A stretch of DNA of 21,251 nucleotides, taken from a virus. Under the pieces are notes generated by a model. That model saw nothing but the letters and a program-made list of their open reading frames with translations. It was not told the origin of the DNA and did no database searches. Positions 3,009 through 21,251 of the stretch are shown piece after piece. Made by a program: the position numbers and the translations under genes. Position 1 is the first letter of the stretch; the number at the start of each line of letters is the position of its first letter. The stretch lies in the IMG/VR virus record IMGVR_UViG_3300030451_000146, positions 1-21,251 of that record. One strand, given 5' to 3'.

Positions 3009-4565
3009 TCATAATACTAACCACCTTTGGCCTGTCGGCACTGTGACTACTACTCCGCTAGAAATAGTCAGTGGTGAGATTGACATTGCATTTTTGTTTG
3101 AACTTATTGTATAGCTCGTAGTTATAGTTTGATCTGTTTCTATGAACACAGAATCGCTACCCCCACCGGTTGCAGCACCGCCACCACCGATTGATCCCCA
3201 TGCAGATCCATCATAACCTTCAAAAGAAGTTTCTGTGGAATTGAATCTTATATATCCGGCTGCTGGTGATCCATCTCTTTGTGCAGTTGTACCTGATGGT
3301 AAATATGCTGATCCTGTGTTGCTAGATTTTTCTACTAAATTAGTTATGCTGACAACTGTATCGTTCCAGTTAGATCCATCATAAACTTTTAATTTATTAT
3401 CAGTTGTATTGAAGTATAGATCTCCAGCAGTTAGAGCAGCACCATCATTATCCACTGAAGGATTAGATGCTTTAGCACCTAAATAAGTATCATCAAAATT
3501 ATCTGCTGCTAACTCGGCTGCAGTTTGAGCAGCTTGTGCTGCAGTTGCAGAATTGGCTGCATTGGTAGCCTGGGTAGTAGCAGTTGATGCAGAAGTTGCT
3601 GCATTGGTTTCTGAAGTTCCAGCATTGGTTGCAGAAGTTGCAGCCGCAGTTGCTGAAGATGCAGCATTAGTTTCTGAAGTGGATGCTGCAGATGCAGAGT
3701 TTGCAGCCGCAGTTGCACTATTAGCCGCAGCAGTTTGACTAGCTGCAGAATTAGTTTCAGATGTACTCGCATTACTTTCAGAAGTTGATGCAGCACTTGC
3801 ACTACTAGCAGCAGCAGTTGCAGAATTGGCTGCATTAGTTGCATTAGTTGCAACTGATGATTCGCTATTTGCAGCATTGGTTGCAGAAGTTGCAGCAGCA
3901 CTTTGACTGGCTGCAGCAGCAGTTGCACTGTTAGCTGCATTGGTAGCATTTGTACCTGAAGTCGTTTCTGAACTTGCTGATGCAGTTTCACTAGCAGCCG
4001 CAGCAGTTGCTGATGCAGCAGCCGCAGATGCAGAATTAGCTGCATTAGTTTCACTTGTTGATGCATTTGATGCGGAAGTCGCAGCAGCACTTGCTTGTGA
4101 AGTTGCTTGTGCTACCTGGGATGCAGCCGCAGTATCAACATAATTCTTAGTAGCTGCATGTTGTGCAGCAGTTGGATCTACAACATTCTTAATCTTTTTG
4201 TTATTAGCAGTCCAGTTAAAATCAGCCGGATCTTGTTGTATGGTATTCTGTGCATCATCAATAGCCTCTTGGCCTAAGAAGAAACCTTGTTTACTATCGG
4301 TATCAAGATCAGATTCTTTTAATACTGATCCAGCTACATAATCTGTAAGTCTAGTAGATTGACTAGAAGATCTCCTAAATTCGATTGCGGCACCGACTGC
4401 TGGTGCTGATGATAATGTCGCTACTGTATTACCGGATGAAAGTGTATATGGAGTATTTACACCATTTACAGTACATGTCAAATGAGATGCATCTATAAAG
4501 TCGAATGTAATACTAAATGCAGTGGTATTTCCATCTCCAGTATATTGTACGAATGAGTTAGCCAT
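3009..4565 (-). CDS. Tail fibre protein (T7 gp17-like N-terminus)
   Basis: A 518-aa main fibre. Residues 1-105 match the T7 tail-fibre N-terminal domain that anchors the fibre to the tail: FVQYTGDGNTTAFSITFDF, a TCTVNG segment, then IEFRR, VLKESDLDTD and QGFFLGQEAIDD. A TAAQHAATKNYVD linker follows. Residues about 145-348 are an Ala/Ser/Thr/Asn repeat shaft (ASATSASNASTSETNAANSA type) like lambda Stf-type fibres. Two short modules come next (GDLYFNTTDNKLKVYDGSNW and GYIRFNSTETSFEGYDGSAW), then a C-terminus ending GQRWLVL. T7 gp17 is 553 aa, so the size is similar. A 26-nt repeat sits 25 nt upstream of the start, suggesting its own promoter. The Shine-Dalgarno GGAG is unusually far (16 nt) from the ATG. 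Confidence 0.93.
   Translation of the reverse strand: MANSFVQYTGDGNTTAFSITFDFIDASHLTCTVNGVNTPYTLSSGNTVATLSSAPAVGAAIEFRRSSSQSTRLTDYVAGSVLKESDLDTDSKQGFFLGQEAIDDAQNTIQQDPADFNWTANNKKIKNVVDPTAAQHAATKNYVDTAAASQVAQATSQASAAATSASNASTSETNAANSASAAAASATAAAASETASASSETTSGTNATNAANSATAAAASQSAAATSATNAANSESSVATNATNAANSATAAASSASAASTSESNASTSETNSAASQTAAANSATAAANSASAASTSETNAASSATAAATSATNAGTSETNAATSASTATTQATNAANSATAAQAAQTAAELAADNFDDTYLGAKASNPSVDNDGAALTAGDLYFNTTDNKLKVYDGSNWNDTVVSITNLVEKSSNTGSAYLPSGTTAQRDGSPAAGYIRFNSTETSFEGYDGSAWGSIGGGGAATGGGSDSVFIETDQTITTSYTISSNKNAMSISPLTISSGVVVTVPTGQRWLVL
3520..4130 (-). repeat. Low-complexity Ala/Ser/Thr repeat region of the fibre shaft
   Basis: About 200 codons dominated by Ala, Ser, Thr and Asn with recurring ETNAANSA and SATAAA units. 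The DNA repetition gives long spurious open frames on both strands. It is a likely site of length variation by recombination between repeats. Confidence 0.8.
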
Positions 4566-7600: not shown

Positions 7601-8304
7601 AAAACAGAATCATCATCTTCTGATTTTAAATAATCGAATACTACGATATCCAAATATGGATTATCAAATTCCGCTAACATATCAGTTAGCCTTCCTTCTG
7701 CTGGATCTATAACAAAGAAATCTGCTGCTGCACCAGCAGTCATAGCTCTAGCAAATTTTGATTTCTTAGAGATCTCTACTAGCTCATTACCTTTTTTAAC
7801 TTTATTAGCCCACCCAGCAGCTTTTAATCCTTTACTGGCTAAACCAAATCCACCTAAGAATCTAGCTATTCCTTCAGTAGCTACACCTACACCTGTTTTA
7901 GATTTGTACCATCTAGGGATCAGGCGATTGTTTGGATCTAAAATATAATCTAAAGTTTCTATACCGGTTTCACCTGTTAGATCACCAATGGTATCTAATG
8001 TTTCTTCTATACCATTTGTAAGGCCTACACCGGCTGATAATACAAAGTCTTTAAGATAGCTGGGATCAGCACCAGGATCTTTAACTAATCCGCTAGTCCT
8101 GGGTACTACCGGCTCATAACCATCATCTGTATCTAGATCGTTCATCCAGCTTGTATCACTTTTATCATTTGGATCTATAGAAGTTTCTATAGGATCATCT
8201 TCAGGTATTGGTAATGGTGGATTAACACTGTTTGATTCTTGATCTGTTGGATCTTTTTCTTGATCCAGTTTTTCAATATCTAACATCCAACTTGTATCTG
8301 ACAT
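4624..8304 (-). CDS. Large internal virion protein (T7 gp16-like, internal core protein D)
   Basis: A 1226-aa protein, close to T7 gp16 (1318 aa) in size and identical in position, last of the internal core genes and just before the fibre. In T7 this protein is ejected first and helps form the conduit across the cell envelope. The N-terminus is acidic and apparently disordered and contains the motif SDTSWM twice (residues 2-7 and 49-54). Hydrophobic and Gly/Ala-rich stretches follow (VGVATEGIARFLGGFGLA and VIEGMMLGGLVEGALMIGM), then long helical regions and Arg/Lys-rich segments. I see no lytic transglycosylase motif of the kind carried by T7 gp16. Its ATG overlaps the preceding stop (TAATG). 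The call rests mainly on size and synteny. Confidence 0.82.
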   Translation of the reverse strand: MSDTSWMLDIEKLDQEKDPTDQESNSVNPPLPIPEDDPIETSIDPNDKSDTSWMNDLDTDDGYEPVVPRTSGLVKDPGADPSYLKDFVLSAGVGLTNGIEETLDTIGDLTGETGIETLDYILDPNNRLIPRWYKSKTGVGVATEGIARFLGGFGLASKGLKAAGWANKVKKGNELVEISKKSKFARAMTAGAAADFFVIDPAEGRLTDMLAEFDNPYLDIVVFDYLKSEDDDSVLEGKVKNVIEGMMLGGLVEGALMIGMRAMKAARKTPEKAEEIYEKAAKKIEEHKKKYDTKPGDPDPATKPKTRAEKINEVETNPAIDTNKAIKKLKTSAENADKDSRTFLDTIINTDKFKSGKHVLKTIEDAVNLFDDETLEYLSKDVLTNKNALELANLLGRNVEEVLAALPKDAEYAKQSTVRMIAAKQVIQRIGKQTQEMAKEVSKLTKLYGRAKITLPGQKAYRDWPEDAQKVVRQYEEMSVILADSTYYLKEQIRNAARLTQAGRIKVGLAEGKLDIERLVDDIENYKGDALSSAGTMANYTPAQVISQVGKTKGRLAVETFNSLYTNSLLSSPWTNAINLTSGIYEAMLRPLENAGGAILQGDLRGAAQAFAHYQGMLQSYKDIWRATKLSFQQGDAVLDKKFQTIETKGRNGRTITAANYDMQDGLPARMVDWVGKYLELPGQLLTSGDEMLKQANYRGRIHASSVRRMTAEGIEPGSPAWKEGLEKDMDQAFAPDGSAAVDRNPMAAEAVQYAREATFTNSLKDGSYLGIGENLEKFFNNVPALRFMAPFIRTPTNLWRHVGNRFPILGRFTKQNSRKWATGDPRARAEILGQQLFGLAATTMGYMYATSDVVITDKNGKQKVLPRITGKGIKDRGARDLLMATGWQPYSILMNKGTEEEPEWTYVQYNRTDPRFFMFGIMADIVEVSKLDPTIEGIPEYSIAVLQSITRNMTDKTYTKGISDALELLEDPTGANVTRFGGNLLNNTIPYSGFRRFLVQELGDAHSYEVRDATDVLLENVGLTDTLEPKRDWKGDPIIKARTGFFMNDGVFSGVMMSPSLIGRGSEIKDPSDNIYTMAKLLSGVSGIDKKSLHKDLDISTFRNSKGQTALDYWRENIGKVRVNGMKIDQFMKFKMKSSEFLNAGTGDPNDPGGKEFLMAKYYQAFKLKARNQLLSKGSGFKNEEGDRLSDSFVEERKDKYRFYKKDAPHIKEDKKRNIDRLIGF

Positions 8305-17869: not shown

Positions 17870-18133
17870 ATTTTGCTTATCATCTACTGCACAAATAAGA
17901 AATTTTAAGTACCACTCAGCTTTAGATAGATCTATTATTGGATTATCACTATGTTTAGTCTCATATCTCCATATGTATTTTTGTATATTACCTTTTAAGT
18001 ATCCACAAAATGCATCATGTGACATTGATGCTTTGATAGCATAGATACATTCGATATCACCACCATTGTAATGAAATGGTTTATTAACTATGTCCTGGTT
18101 TCCAGGCTCTGATTTTTTTACTTTTGAAGTCAT
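17867..18133 (-). CDS. DUF3310 protein
   Basis: An 88-aa protein that is almost entirely a DUF3310 domain: VNKPFHYN (residues 16-23), IECIYAI (27-33), GYLKGNIQKYIWRY (44-57) and DLSKAEWYLKFLI (68-80). The domain is common in phages, and in T7 it occurs in gp1.7, a nucleotide kinase. Here the domain stands alone, so kinase activity should not be assumed. The gene overlaps the exonuclease by 50 nt; the ATG at 18133 is supported by GGGAAG just upstream. A link to nucleotide supply is suggested by the adjacent replication genes. The stop codon is part of the 26-nt repeat. Confidence 0.88.
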   Translation of the reverse strand: MTSKVKKSEPGNQDIVNKPFHYNGGDIECIYAIKASMSHDAFCGYLKGNIQKYIWRYETKHSDNPIIDLSKAEWYLKFLICAVDDKQN

Positions 18134-18845
18134 AATCTTCCCATTGTAGTATGTAACTTATCCTTGCTTGTGTAATTGCATCTTGTTCTGTATATCCGGC
18201 CTTAGTGTATGTTTTTAAAATAATATCCCAGTATGGATCCATAGACTTAGATCCTTCTACAGGTTGTAATAATTTAGCTGCAGTTTTAGTTCCTATACCT
18301 TTGCACCCTGGGTAATTATCTGTAGTATCACCAGTAAGTATTTGTATTGCATGATTATAAATGGCCTGGGGTTTAGTAATCTTGTATATGTTATGACCAT
18401 CAGGTGATAACTTACCTGGTATCGTTTTAAGATCCTTATCTAAAGAAACTATAATACTATTTTTATTCTCAGGATTTGTAGAATATATACCTAATAAATC
18501 ATCAGCCTCTAATCTTGGCTCAGTTATAGCATTGTGTTCTGATTTTAAATATTTAAACATCTCGAATAAACACAATGGTTTTCTTCTATCACCTCTGTTT
18601 GCTTTGTAATCTTCACTTAATTTTTTTCTAAAGTTTTCTTCTCGATCACTAAGAAATATTAATACATCTGACAAGTACAGATTCTCTTTTAGACTAAGTA
18701 TGTACTCTTCAAATATTTTTCTAGCCATATTGAAATCACTATGTAGTGTCCATAGATCATTACCCCAGTGTATCGGCTCTTCTATTTGACTTGCTATTTG
18801 ATATGCAATGATATCACCATCTATTAATAATTTACTTTTTGACAT
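18084..18845 (-). CDS. 5'-3' exonuclease (T7 gp6-like, FEN/PIN family)
   Basis: A 253-aa enzyme (T7 gp6 is about 300 aa) that removes RNA primers and degrades host DNA in T7. Metal-binding acidic residues are visible: LIDGDIIAY (D9, D11), EADDLLGIY (E113, D115, D116), VSLDKDL (D136, D138) and TGDTTDN (D173, D176). A YKANRG clamp motif lies at 80-85, and the helix-three-turn-helix GCKGIGTKTAAKLL at 180-193 binds duplex DNA. AAGGA lies upstream of the ATG, which overlaps the HNH gene by 14 nt. All key residues are present, so the protein is predicted to be active. Confidence 0.94.
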   Translation of the reverse strand: MSKSKLLIDGDIIAYQIASQIEEPIHWGNDLWTLHSDFNMARKIFEEYILSLKENLYLSDVLIFLSDREENFRKKLSEDYKANRGDRRKPLCLFEMFKYLKSEHNAITEPRLEADDLLGIYSTNPENKNSIIVSLDKDLKTIPGKLSPDGHNIYKITKPQAIYNHAIQILTGDTTDNYPGCKGIGTKTAAKLLQPVEGSKSMDPYWDIILKTYTKAGYTEQDAITQARISYILQWEDYDFKSKKIRAWKPGHS

Positions 18846-19341
18846 TTTTTCTTTCCTTATACTGTTTGACTGTGTAATTTGCTAATCTCATTAATTCATA
18901 TGGATGTGCATTATTTTTAATTGTGTTTGCTTTGACTGATATCCATTGTATGTTACCGACTATATATCCTTTATCTGTGTCTATACGATCCATTGATGCT
19001 GATCTCCATTTATCTGTATTACAAAATGACATCTCACAATTAAACACCGGACATAAATGATCTTTAGGAAATATACTTTTTAAATATTCTATAGATACAT
19101 TAAATTCCATTCCTCTTTTCTTTGCTCTACCTTTGGCACCTCTTCTTACTTCTCTAATATTTAGATGTAGCCAGGCATCAGGAGTACACCATTTTTCTTT
19201 TAATGAGTATTTGTTTTTGACATACCCTATAAAATATAATCCTCTTTGCTTGTCACCTTTTTTTAAAATCCTACCTGACAATGGTAATGTAATATAATTT
19301 TTACCAATGTTATCAATGGATCTCTTTCCAATTTCTACCAA
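18832..19341 (-). CDS. HNH endonuclease (free-standing, possibly homing)
   Basis: A 169-aa protein inserted between polymerase and exonuclease. A basic region (REVRRGAKGRAKKRGMEFNVSIEYL) precedes a Cys motif (C97, C102, C107). The HNH core is RSASMDRIDTDKGYIVGNIQWISVKANTIKNNA (catalytic-site region D118 to N139), given here as its positions 113-145. This arrangement is typical of free-standing phage HNH proteins, some of which are homing endonucleases. The frame starts with TTG at 19341; GGAG 9 nt upstream supports it, and no later ATG before the core is plausible. It overlaps the polymerase end by 29 nt and the exonuclease start by 14 nt. The target site is unknown. Confidence 0.85.
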   Translation of the reverse strand: MVEIGKRSIDNIGKNYITLPLSGRILKKGDKQRGLYFIGYVKNKYSLKEKWCTPDAWLHLNIREVRRGAKGRAKKRGMEFNVSIEYLKSIFPKDHLCPVFNCEMSFCNTDKWRSASMDRIDTDKGYIVGNIQWISVKANTIKNNAHPYELMRLANYTVKQYKERKNVKK

Positions 19342-21049
19342 TTCTACTATCTCCGGTTAGTTGTACTCTCAATCCTATACGATCTGTAATATCTTCTATA
19401 GCCTGGACTACCATGATCTTAGCTTGATCTGCAAGATCTTCTTTTACTTCCAGGATTACTTCATCATGGATCCATCCAACAAGTTTTATATCCTCATTCA
19501 AATGTGATCTAAGATTATCTATCCAATATTTAGATACGATTGCACCTGATGATTGAAGTAAACAATTCAATGCAGCATGTGTAGATCTAACAAATACTCT
19601 TCTACCATCTAGTGCTTTTATATCACCATTAGTTTCTGCTGCTGATTGCACATCCTGGATCAACATGTGTAATGCTGGGATCTTCTCCAAAAACATATCT
19701 CTTAATTTCTTACCTTCTGCTGGTGTCTTATTCATAGTCTCGCCAATTCTTTTTGCACCGCCACCATACAAAAATGTATATATAAATTTTTTAGCTAGTG
19801 GTCTTTGATTAGCTTTAAGTTCTAATGCTTGTAATGTCCTGGTATGTATATCACCATTGACAACATCATTAGCATACTCACCATCATCATATGGATACAT
19901 GTAATGGCCTAACATTCTAAGTTCCAACTGTGACATATCAGCACCAACTAAAAGACATCCATCTTTTGCTTTGAATAATTCTCTACACTTATCTCCATAC
20001 TCTGCATTTACACTTACAACTTGTGCTAAGTTAGGTGTAGCATGAGTTGCTCTACCGGTAACTGCACCATTGGTATTTATTGTGCTATAGATCCTTCCTT
20101 TGTTTTCTAATTTTAACCATGCATTATTACCTTCTGCTAGTTGGCCTAATCTTTTTTGGATCATAAACATCCTGGCTAAAAATTTAGCCTCACTCCAGTC
20201 TAATGCGGCCAACACAGAATCATCTACTTTAGGCCTACCATCCGGTGTAAATTCTGTTGGCACCCATCCTCGTTGTGCTTTCAATCTCATAGCTATGTGA
20301 TCCCTGGAATTAGGATTGAAGTCTACAATTTTTCTTTTTGTAAATGGTTTACCTTTGACATAACCTCTGCTTTTATTATTTACTTTAGGTATAAATTCTT
20401 CAGTCTCTTCCCAGGATGGAAAATACTCTGATAATTGTTTTTCTAATTTAGTTCTCTCATCTGATAGTTCACTGTAAAGTTCTCTAGCTTTAGTAGTATC
20501 AAACTCTATTCCATTCATCATCATACCTACACATGCCTCTTGTACTTTGTGTTCTAGATCCAATGATTCTTTTGAATAATTTTTTTCTAAAATCTTTTTA
20601 TATAAAACATGAGTTACTTCCACATCTAAAATACAATACTCTAACATCTCTTCTGTAAACTCATCCCATTGTTCAGGTGCTTTACCTTTATTTAATTTTA
20701 ATCTATATCCCCAGGCCTCTAAACTTTGGCGGCCTACTAATTTTTGTGGGTATCCTGTATGAATATTTTTATAATCATATTCTTTGATATGTGACCAAAC
20801 TAATCTAGCAGCAACTAATGTATCGAATAGTTCGGCCTGGGTTTTAATGTTTGTAATTTTTTCTATAACTTTACAATCGAAAGCCATAACATTATGACCT
20901 ACTATAAGTTCTGCTTTTTGATAAAGATCTAAACATTGATCAAGATCAGTATAGATTTTATTAGTTTCTATATCTTTCATAACTATGCAATGTATCTTGG
21001 TAACTTTATCTAAAAAATTATCACACTCTAAATCTAATATGTATTTCAT
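19313..21049 (-). CDS. DNA polymerase, family A (T7 gp5-like)
   Basis: A 578-aa replicative polymerase, clearly shorter than T7 gp5 (704 aa). The 3'-5' exonuclease residues are present: D6 and E8 (ILDLE), D58 in GHNVMAFD, and Y138/D142 in YCILD. Polymerase motif A is GADMSQLELRML (D371), motif B is AKKFIYTFLYGGG (K421, Y428), and motif C is GWIHDEVILEV (H528-D529-E530). Phrases such as GAVTGRATHATPNLAQ and HAALNCLLQSSGA are near-identical to gp5, and the protein ends in His as gp5 does. The thumb region that holds the thioredoxin-binding insertion in T7 is much shorter here (residues about 213-244). AGGAG lies 3 nt before the ATG and overlaps the previous stop. Confidence 0.97.
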   Translation of the reverse strand: MKYILDLECDNFLDKVTKIHCIVMKDIETNKIYTDLDQCLDLYQKAELIVGHNVMAFDCKVIEKITNIKTQAELFDTLVAARLVWSHIKEYDYKNIHTGYPQKLVGRQSLEAWGYRLKLNKGKAPEQWDEFTEEMLEYCILDVEVTHVLYKKILEKNYSKESLDLEHKVQEACVGMMMNGIEFDTTKARELYSELSDERTKLEKQLSEYFPSWEETEEFIPKVNNKSRGYVKGKPFTKRKIVDFNPNSRDHIAMRLKAQRGWVPTEFTPDGRPKVDDSVLAALDWSEAKFLARMFMIQKRLGQLAEGNNAWLKLENKGRIYSTINTNGAVTGRATHATPNLAQVVSVNAEYGDKCRELFKAKDGCLLVGADMSQLELRMLGHYMYPYDDGEYANDVVNGDIHTRTLQALELKANQRPLAKKFIYTFLYGGGAKRIGETMNKTPAEGKKLRDMFLEKIPALHMLIQDVQSAAETNGDIKALDGRRVFVRSTHAALNCLLQSSGAIVSKYWIDNLRSHLNEDIKLVGWIHDEVILEVKEDLADQAKIMVVQAIEDITDRIGLRVQLTGDSRIGRNWKEIH

Positions 21050-21056
21050 TTACTCC

Positions 21057-21251
21057 TCAATGTATTGTCTTTAATTCAAAATAAATATGTATATCATCTC
21101 GATCATCATACACACTCCACAATCTCATGGATAACTCTTCCATCTCTTCTTCACTTCTAACAGGAATAATCAATGTTTTTTCATTTTGTAGTTCTACTTT
21201 TGTAATTGCAGCTTTACAAATGTATTCAATATATTCCTGTTCTGTTTCAAA
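21057..21251 (-). CDS. C-terminal part of an unidentified protein (5' end outside window)
   Basis: An open frame enters from the right edge and ends at TGA (21057-21059), giving 64 residues in frame with the edge. Visible are YIEYICKAAITKVELQNEK, then TLIIPVRSEEEMEELSMRLW and a DDRDDIHIYFEL segment near the end. It is acidic, and I do not recognise it. The stop overlaps the Shine-Dalgarno of the DNA polymerase, so the two genes are probably in one operon and coupled. In T7 the genes before the polymerase include primase-helicase and small early genes; this sequence resembles no helicase C-terminus I know. The tight junction and sensible codon use support a real gene. Confidence 0.65.
   Translation of the reverse strand, partial: FETEQEYIEYICKAAITKVELQNEKTLIIPVRSEEEMEELSMRLWSVYDDRDDIHIYFELKTIH

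Follow-up and report, generated by a model that had tools for sequence, protein, structure and literature searches.

A T7-type DNA polymerase with a short thumb tip in a Votkovvirus-like pelagiphage: replication most likely without host thioredoxin

Introduction

Phage T7 provides the textbook minimal replisome, and its DNA polymerase, gp5, grips the host thioredoxin through a loop of the thumb. A preliminary description of the viral DNA considered here reported a polymerase of the same type that appeared to lack most of this insertion. This raises several questions: whether the insertion is really absent, rather than displaced; whether it was lost in this lineage or never acquired; and how the replisome could then remain processive. 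Our reading, based on sequences and a structure model, is that the gene very probably encodes the replicative T7-type polymerase of a Votkovvirus-like pelagiphage, that a hairpin tip without thioredoxin-binding loops takes their place in the thumb, and that the enzyme most likely replicates DNA without the host thioredoxin.

Sequences and relatives

The window, by which we mean the whole stretch of DNA analysed, is a virus record of 21,251 bases. Its closest named relatives are the Votkovvirus pelagiphages: the uncultured phage MedDCM-OCT-S28-C10 (AP013540), with 74% identity between its polymerase and the window enzyme, and Pelagibacter phages HTVC200P and HTVC119P (62% each). The helicase and SSB genes lie beyond the window edge and hence were read in a near-identical contig, L001, which matches the window with 99.9% identity over 9936 bases.

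The comparison set comprised 208 loci, composed of the best 80 relatives for each of three queries (out of 541, 541 and 544 confirmed ones, ranked by similarity) and of hand-picked named phages. A polymerase ORF was found in 207 loci, the missing one being that of phiKMV (T7-type profile, E 1e-20). The polymerases from the 196 loci where they had at least 500 aa were clustered together with the window protein, yielding 150 non-redundant sequences (<95% identity), which were aligned; P-SSP7 (split gene) and ProddE (intron) were left out on length. The polymerase gene is split or interrupted in L028, L116, L202, L204 and L005; among these, that of P-SSP7 is annotated as two ORFs, that of ProddE has an annotated intron, and in the other three, all contigs, two pieces were found by the profile.

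The polymerase and its gene neighbourhood

The polymerase gene (19313..21049, minus strand) encodes a T7-type family A enzyme of 578 aa with a 3'-5' exonuclease domain (Pfam DNA_pol_A, 5.5e-45; T7 gp5 among PDB sequences, E 1.5e-98). The catalytic residues D6, E8, D58, D142, D371, H528 and D529 are invariant in a 15-sequence alignment, so that both the catalytic Asp pair and the acidic residues of the exonuclease are present, and the catalytic motifs are intact, as had been claimed. The AlphaFold2 model (47 sequences) has pLDDT 93.7 and pTM 0.89. When it was compared with known structures by VIA-align, T7 gp5 (2ajq_A) ranked first (Z 40.1, rmsd 1.7 over 550 residues, 41% identity over the aligned positions), followed by the Bst and Taq polymerase I large fragments (Z about 31-32). 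Thus, the enzyme shares with gp5 the family, the exonuclease and the fold. The large fragments, which come from a bacterial repair enzyme, also share the fold, although at an identity of only about 21%; to our knowledge, they have no thioredoxin insert.

The neighbouring genes are of the T7 type as well. The window encodes a 5'-3' exonuclease of the T7 gp6 type (18084..18845, minus strand; Pfam 5_3_exonuc_N, 4.8e-11), and L001 carries a T7-type (gp4-type) primase-helicase and a gp2.5-type SSB. Between the two window genes there is an ORF of 169 aa with a TTG start (18832..19341, minus strand), which shares some bases with the 3' end of the polymerase gene. Its positional counterpart in AP013540 is annotated as an endonuclease, and a Pfam search with the window ORF gave no match. 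At a distance from these genes, an ORF at 3009-4565 (minus strand) contains a long, repeat-like stretch rich in Ala, Ser, Thr and Asn, and 151 of its bases match an HTVC203P gene annotated as a putative tail fiber.

The thumb tip

The thumb-tip segment (residues 211-243; 20321..20419, minus strand) is a beta-hairpin of 33 aa in alignments and model, and its counterpart in T7 is a segment of 72 residues holding the thioredoxin-binding domain. It is followed by the anchor block FNPNSRDHI (residues 244-252; 20294..20320, minus strand; alignment). Between W213 (codon start 20413) and F244 (codon end 20318) there are 30 residues, compared to 69 between W264 and F334 of T7 gp5 in the alignments. The preliminary description had counted about 30 residues from a tryptophan near position 213 to the anchor block, which is exact in number and place; it had also rightly taken the T7 segment to be longer, but its length of about 65 should be 69.

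The phmmer match to T7 is interrupted at the tip, as residue 215 of the query corresponds to T7 266 and the match resumes with query 227 at T7 317. The sequence after the gap is again similar (window SRGYVKGKPFTKRKIVDFNPNSRDHI, T7 TREYVAGAPYTPVEHVVFNPSSRDHI; phmmer and alignment). In total, the window protein has nothing that corresponds to 39 of the 72 T7 residues in this segment, and in the AlphaFold2 model the tip is a plain beta-hairpin with strands 213-219 and 236-242. The ten T7-clade tips are 61-72 residues long, versus 33 in the window. As the segment from F210 to F244 has this same length of 33 residues in contigs L002, L003, L004, L008, L032 and L034 and in the records AP013540 and HTVC200P, the short tip is not an accident of assembly.

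An equivalent insertion elsewhere in the protein would speak against the absence of the domain. The largest insertion relative to T7 anywhere in the polymerase alignment is of two residues; hence, the T7 insert has not been relocated. The absence of most of the thioredoxin-binding insertion thus stands, backed by the alignment, the structure model and the comparison of 150 sequences, and since the T7 thioredoxin-binding loops are not there, the polymerase is most likely independent of host thioredoxin. For orientation, PMC3556154 gives residues 258-333 as the limits of the T7 thioredoxin-binding region, and the same paper reports that in phiCbK this region is extended by 11 residues.

The front basic patch

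A second T7 element, beyond the one covered by the preliminary description, is also missing. In T7 the hairpin VKWKRRW (586-592) precedes the LDGR motif, and we take its residues K587, K589, R590 and R591 to be the front basic patch. The hairpin has no counterpart in the window polymerase, where the corresponding segment (residues 459-480; 19610..19675, minus strand) comprises 22 aa in the alignments, compared to 36 in T7 and 36-38 in the T7 clade. According to PMC12593628 and PMC5997990, the T7 helicase tail docks on this patch, and the latter source reports that with the basic-patch contacts the replisome reaches a processivity of 17 kb instead of 5 kb.

The site varies in the opposite direction as well: two Rhizobium phages with a short thumb tip (L022, L023) have 54 residues there, versus 36 in T7 and 22 in the window.

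Helicase tail and SSB

The helicase C-termini could be read for 132 of the 150 phages. Tail lengths were counted from the alignment column of the TGRL motif and are approximate for the few sequences without the motif at that place. A terminal Phe or Tyr is kept by 105 of the 132 helicases. In the T7 clade all eight readable helicases end with one of these residues, and their tails extend for 23-27 residues past the TGRL-type motif, with a net charge of -5 to -11. Two groups have no aromatic end. The nine Votkovvirus-like helicases, with the window represented by L001, stop 6-7 residues past the motif; the L001 helicase ends with TGRLTELFNEL (net charge -2), and thus has no acidic tail with a terminal Phe. 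The eleven Stopavirus-type helicases retain 7-15 residues, some of them acidic. The helicase-end character requires ten parsimony changes, compared to a mean of 26 with shuffled labels.

One could suppose that the helicase tail and the polymerase patches are lost jointly, following a single rule. This was rejected, as 81 of the 104 phages with a short tip and a readable helicase end still have the terminal F or Y. Since short-tip polymerases are thus mostly paired with a tailed helicase, the tail was lost in a step of its own, specific to the clades concerned. Other pelagiphage and roseophage members of Autographiviridae (HTVC200P, HTVC019P, HTVC011P and CRP-125) have a short tip and no front basic patch, the same as the window, and the Votkovvirus HTVC200P has the tail-less helicase of the window genus as well. 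In contrast, the CRP-125 helicase ends with F, and the Pelagivirus HTVC019P, whose tip is even shorter (22 residues), has kept the tail, which ends with DDY.

In Votkovvirus, the insert, the front patch and the helicase tail are all absent, hence all three docking elements of the T7 polymerase and helicase are missing, although the partner genes are alike. The SSBs also differ in degree, as the last 20 residues of the Votkovvirus-like gp2.5-type proteins, which end with DFI or DFL, have a net charge of -2 to -5, versus -14 in T7. What is less ordinary about the system is not the tip as such, but the pairing of a short-tip polymerase with a helicase that has no tail. This pairing is seen in one genus of SAR11 phages and, in a milder form, in the second, Stopavirus-type clade. 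SAR11 are the commonest bacteria of the ocean, both clades include cultured SAR11 phages, and these tail-less helicases amount to a natural experiment on the coupling of helicase and polymerase. In the literature searched on pelagiphage thioredoxin, helicase and processivity, with most subscription journals outside its reach, this twist was not found.

The replisome would then do without the T7 tether between the tail and the basic patch. The enzyme may, as the preliminary description suggested, attain processivity by other means or be less processive. The likeliest route to processivity, as we infer it, would be that polymerase and helicase stack directly on each other at the fork, with the participation of the gp2.5-type SSB and with frequent re-binding, the genome being about 40 kb long.

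The gene between the helicase and the polymerase

A rival reading is that another phage protein fills the gap. At the window edge there is a small ORF (21057..21251, minus strand), cut to 64 of its 70 aa and present as a whole in L001 at 7781-7990, the stop codon not counted. Its 70 codons there start 8 bases before the helicase stop codon, so that the two genes overlap by 11 bases with the stop codon counted, and end just upstream of the polymerase. With dN/dS of 0.14-0.35 (ten pairs from five loci, synonymous sites being near saturation in some pairs), the ORF appears to be under purifying selection, in support of a real gene.

The suggestion is that this protein is a phage-made replisome accessory replacing both thioredoxin and the helicase tail. 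The position of the gene, the selection on it and the predicted alpha-beta-alpha-beta fold (pLDDT 86.1) all agree with such a role. So does the presence of small ORFs in the same slot of Pelagivirus and other related contigs, where, by their profiles, the Pelagivirus group is linked with those of L036 (88.8%) and HTVC200P (60.0%). Foldseek with the slot model gave a weak match, the fourth in rank (E 0.24), to a 74-aa HTVC019P protein, which, judged by its length, is probably the slot protein of that phage.

Several observations point the other way. The group containing the window ORF shows just a weak link with the HTVC200P group (21.6%) and none with the Pelagivirus (1.1%) or L036 (1.4%) groups, and for the Stopavirus ORF there is no link with any of the other 14 groups (best 1.4%). 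Among the 131 non-redundant loci in which both genes could be read, 27 have a spacing below 60 bases between the helicase and the polymerase, and 17 of these 27 loci are short-tipped. The slot ORF had no Pfam or PHROG match, and position in an operon is not function. Thus, an accessory role of the slot protein seems unlikely to us, and there is likewise only a small chance that in the Votkovvirus and Stopavirus-type clades a T7-derived replisome without the known docking elements is held together by a small phage protein from this slot.

Comparison of the slot model with known folds was uninformative, the best Z (6.0) being in the range of common arrangements. A tblastn search of phages with the 70-aa protein (E up to 1) found nothing, but it missed the AP013540 relative too and hence is too insensitive to count. 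The slot ORFs as a single pelagiphage family are supported only partly, with links above 50% in 2 of the 105 group pairs.

Phage thioredoxin genes

Replacement of the host thioredoxin by a phage-encoded one was considered and rejected: among 35 records a PF00085 match was found in one, cyanophage S-TIP28, and this was below the curated cut-off. With PF00085 at E up to 0.001, no thioredoxin was found in the window or in four Votkovvirus-like records, two of which are partial.

In S-TIP28 (L027, 5458-5757) and in L173, L174, L175 and L177, a thioredoxin-like ORF occupies the slot between the helicase and the polymerase, which is a further point for an accessory encoded there. The S-TIP28 ORF is annotated as thioredoxin and matches PHROG 22 (1.5e-6); those of L174, L175 and L177 have no PF00085 match and are labelled thioredoxin-like as they cluster with it. 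In S-TIP28 and the related contigs the tip segment has 30 residues, and the thioredoxin-binding domain of T7 is absent from it. This suggests that a T7-type clamp cannot be deduced from the mere presence of a thioredoxin gene next to that of the polymerase.

Published systems and the error rate

The absence of the thioredoxin-binding domain has been published for phiNFS, phiKMV, LKA1 and other phiKMV-like phages, and a link to the error rate was proposed there (PMC5653853). This absence is common to them and the window, but the phiKMV polymerase is no close relative (22% identity), and the phiKMV primase and AAA ATPase are annotated as separate genes. By analogy, the short thumb could make the window enzyme less processive and more error-prone, speeding the evolution of the phage. 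In favour of this reading there is that proposal for the phiKMV-like polymerases; against it, the exonuclease residues are intact. Six pairs of close relatives were compared as well: polymerase dN was 0.06-0.07 at dS 0.64-0.75 in five, and the sixth showed zero difference. As estimated from these sequences, such values represent ordinary purifying selection; they are uninformative on the error rate itself. We consider the error-prone reading quite unlikely, and retain replication without thioredoxin as the preferred one.

Cyanopodoviruses that carry the polymerase gene are presumed to replicate in the T7 manner in PMC9860041. In PMC12753301, PMC9860041, PMC11092137, PMC6918029 and PMC5628290, nothing was found on absence of the thioredoxin domain, and in PMC6302109, on family A polymerases of virioplankton, the word thioredoxin does not occur. 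The short tip is real but mostly ordinary, and the absence of the domain is already in print for the phiKMV-like phages.

Distribution and ancestry of the short tip

The tip segment between F210 and F244 has at most 35 residues in 115 of the 150 sequences, 39-48 in 14 and at least 58 in 21; as the relatives were ranked by similarity (the best 80 per query) and supplemented by hand-picked phages, the 115 of 150 is no unbiased census. The commonest length is that of the window, 33 or 34 residues (n = 69). A long insert together with the front basic patch occurs in ten sequences, which form a single clade (support 1.0) placed among short-tip sequences and including T7, ICP3, PZL-Ah152, Pf-10, PSTCR2 and ST16. 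In the sister group of this clade, Bordetella phage BB8 has a long insert and no patch, and its two group mates are short-tipped.

Under Fitch parsimony the patch requires one change, the inserts of at least 58 residues require nine (versus a mean of 20 with shuffled labels), and the root is short-tipped. Because the root, Celeribacter phage P12053L, was chosen by hand and support is weak at several nodes (e.g. 0.07, 0.11, 0.49), an ancestral short tip is parsimonious rather than proven. Still, as the insert and the patch are combined only in the T7 clade and the short tip is seen in 115 of the 150 sequences, these alignments indicate that the short tip is most likely ancestral and the T7 insert a later addition. 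Among the sampled relatives, a short tip is what one ordinarily finds beyond the T7 clade, and T7 is the elaborate exception. In this sample, both the capture of thioredoxin and the front basic patch look as if they had been added within one clade, and not like features of T7-type replication in general. The loss implied by the preliminary description is therefore reversed for these relatives: the majority and parsimonious ancestral state is the short one, and the insert is derived.

This bears on a recent deletion of the thioredoxin-binding domain in the window lineage. In favour of it, what follows the T7 domain can still be recognised in the sequence of the window polymerase, but the tips of the nine Votkovvirus-like phages, of the other pelagiphages (HTVC019P, HTVC011P, HTVC103P), of CRP-125 and of S-TIP28 are all short (22-34 residues), and the T7-type insert with the patch is confined to one clade. 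A recent deletion is thus very unlikely. That thioredoxin is still bound, on the hairpin that is left or at another site, and works the way it does in T7, is highly improbable too, because, although the sequence and the strands beside the T7 domain are retained, more than half of the T7 segment has no counterpart and nothing longer than two residues is inserted at any other place.

A tblastn search with T7 residues 262-318 alone (E up to 0.01) matched 1205 phage records. Of the 40 organism names of these matches, the ten most frequent were those of enterobacteria, Pseudomonas and Vibrio, and neither Pelagibacter nor Synechococcus was among these ten. When a host link was sought via bacterial genomes, seven stretches matched a pattern, and none of them encoded a relative.

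As long inserts arise several times in the tree (the nine changes above), the thumb-tip site is labile. Another tip insertion of about 60 residues, with the pattern KTPxG...TKxxLK...IP, is present in uncultured phages L148, L156, L170 and L171, whose thumb tips have 58-62 residues. It bears no visible similarity to the T7 domain and, judging by its sequence, is possibly an independent binding module. The tips of L154 and L098 are long too, although less like this insertion.
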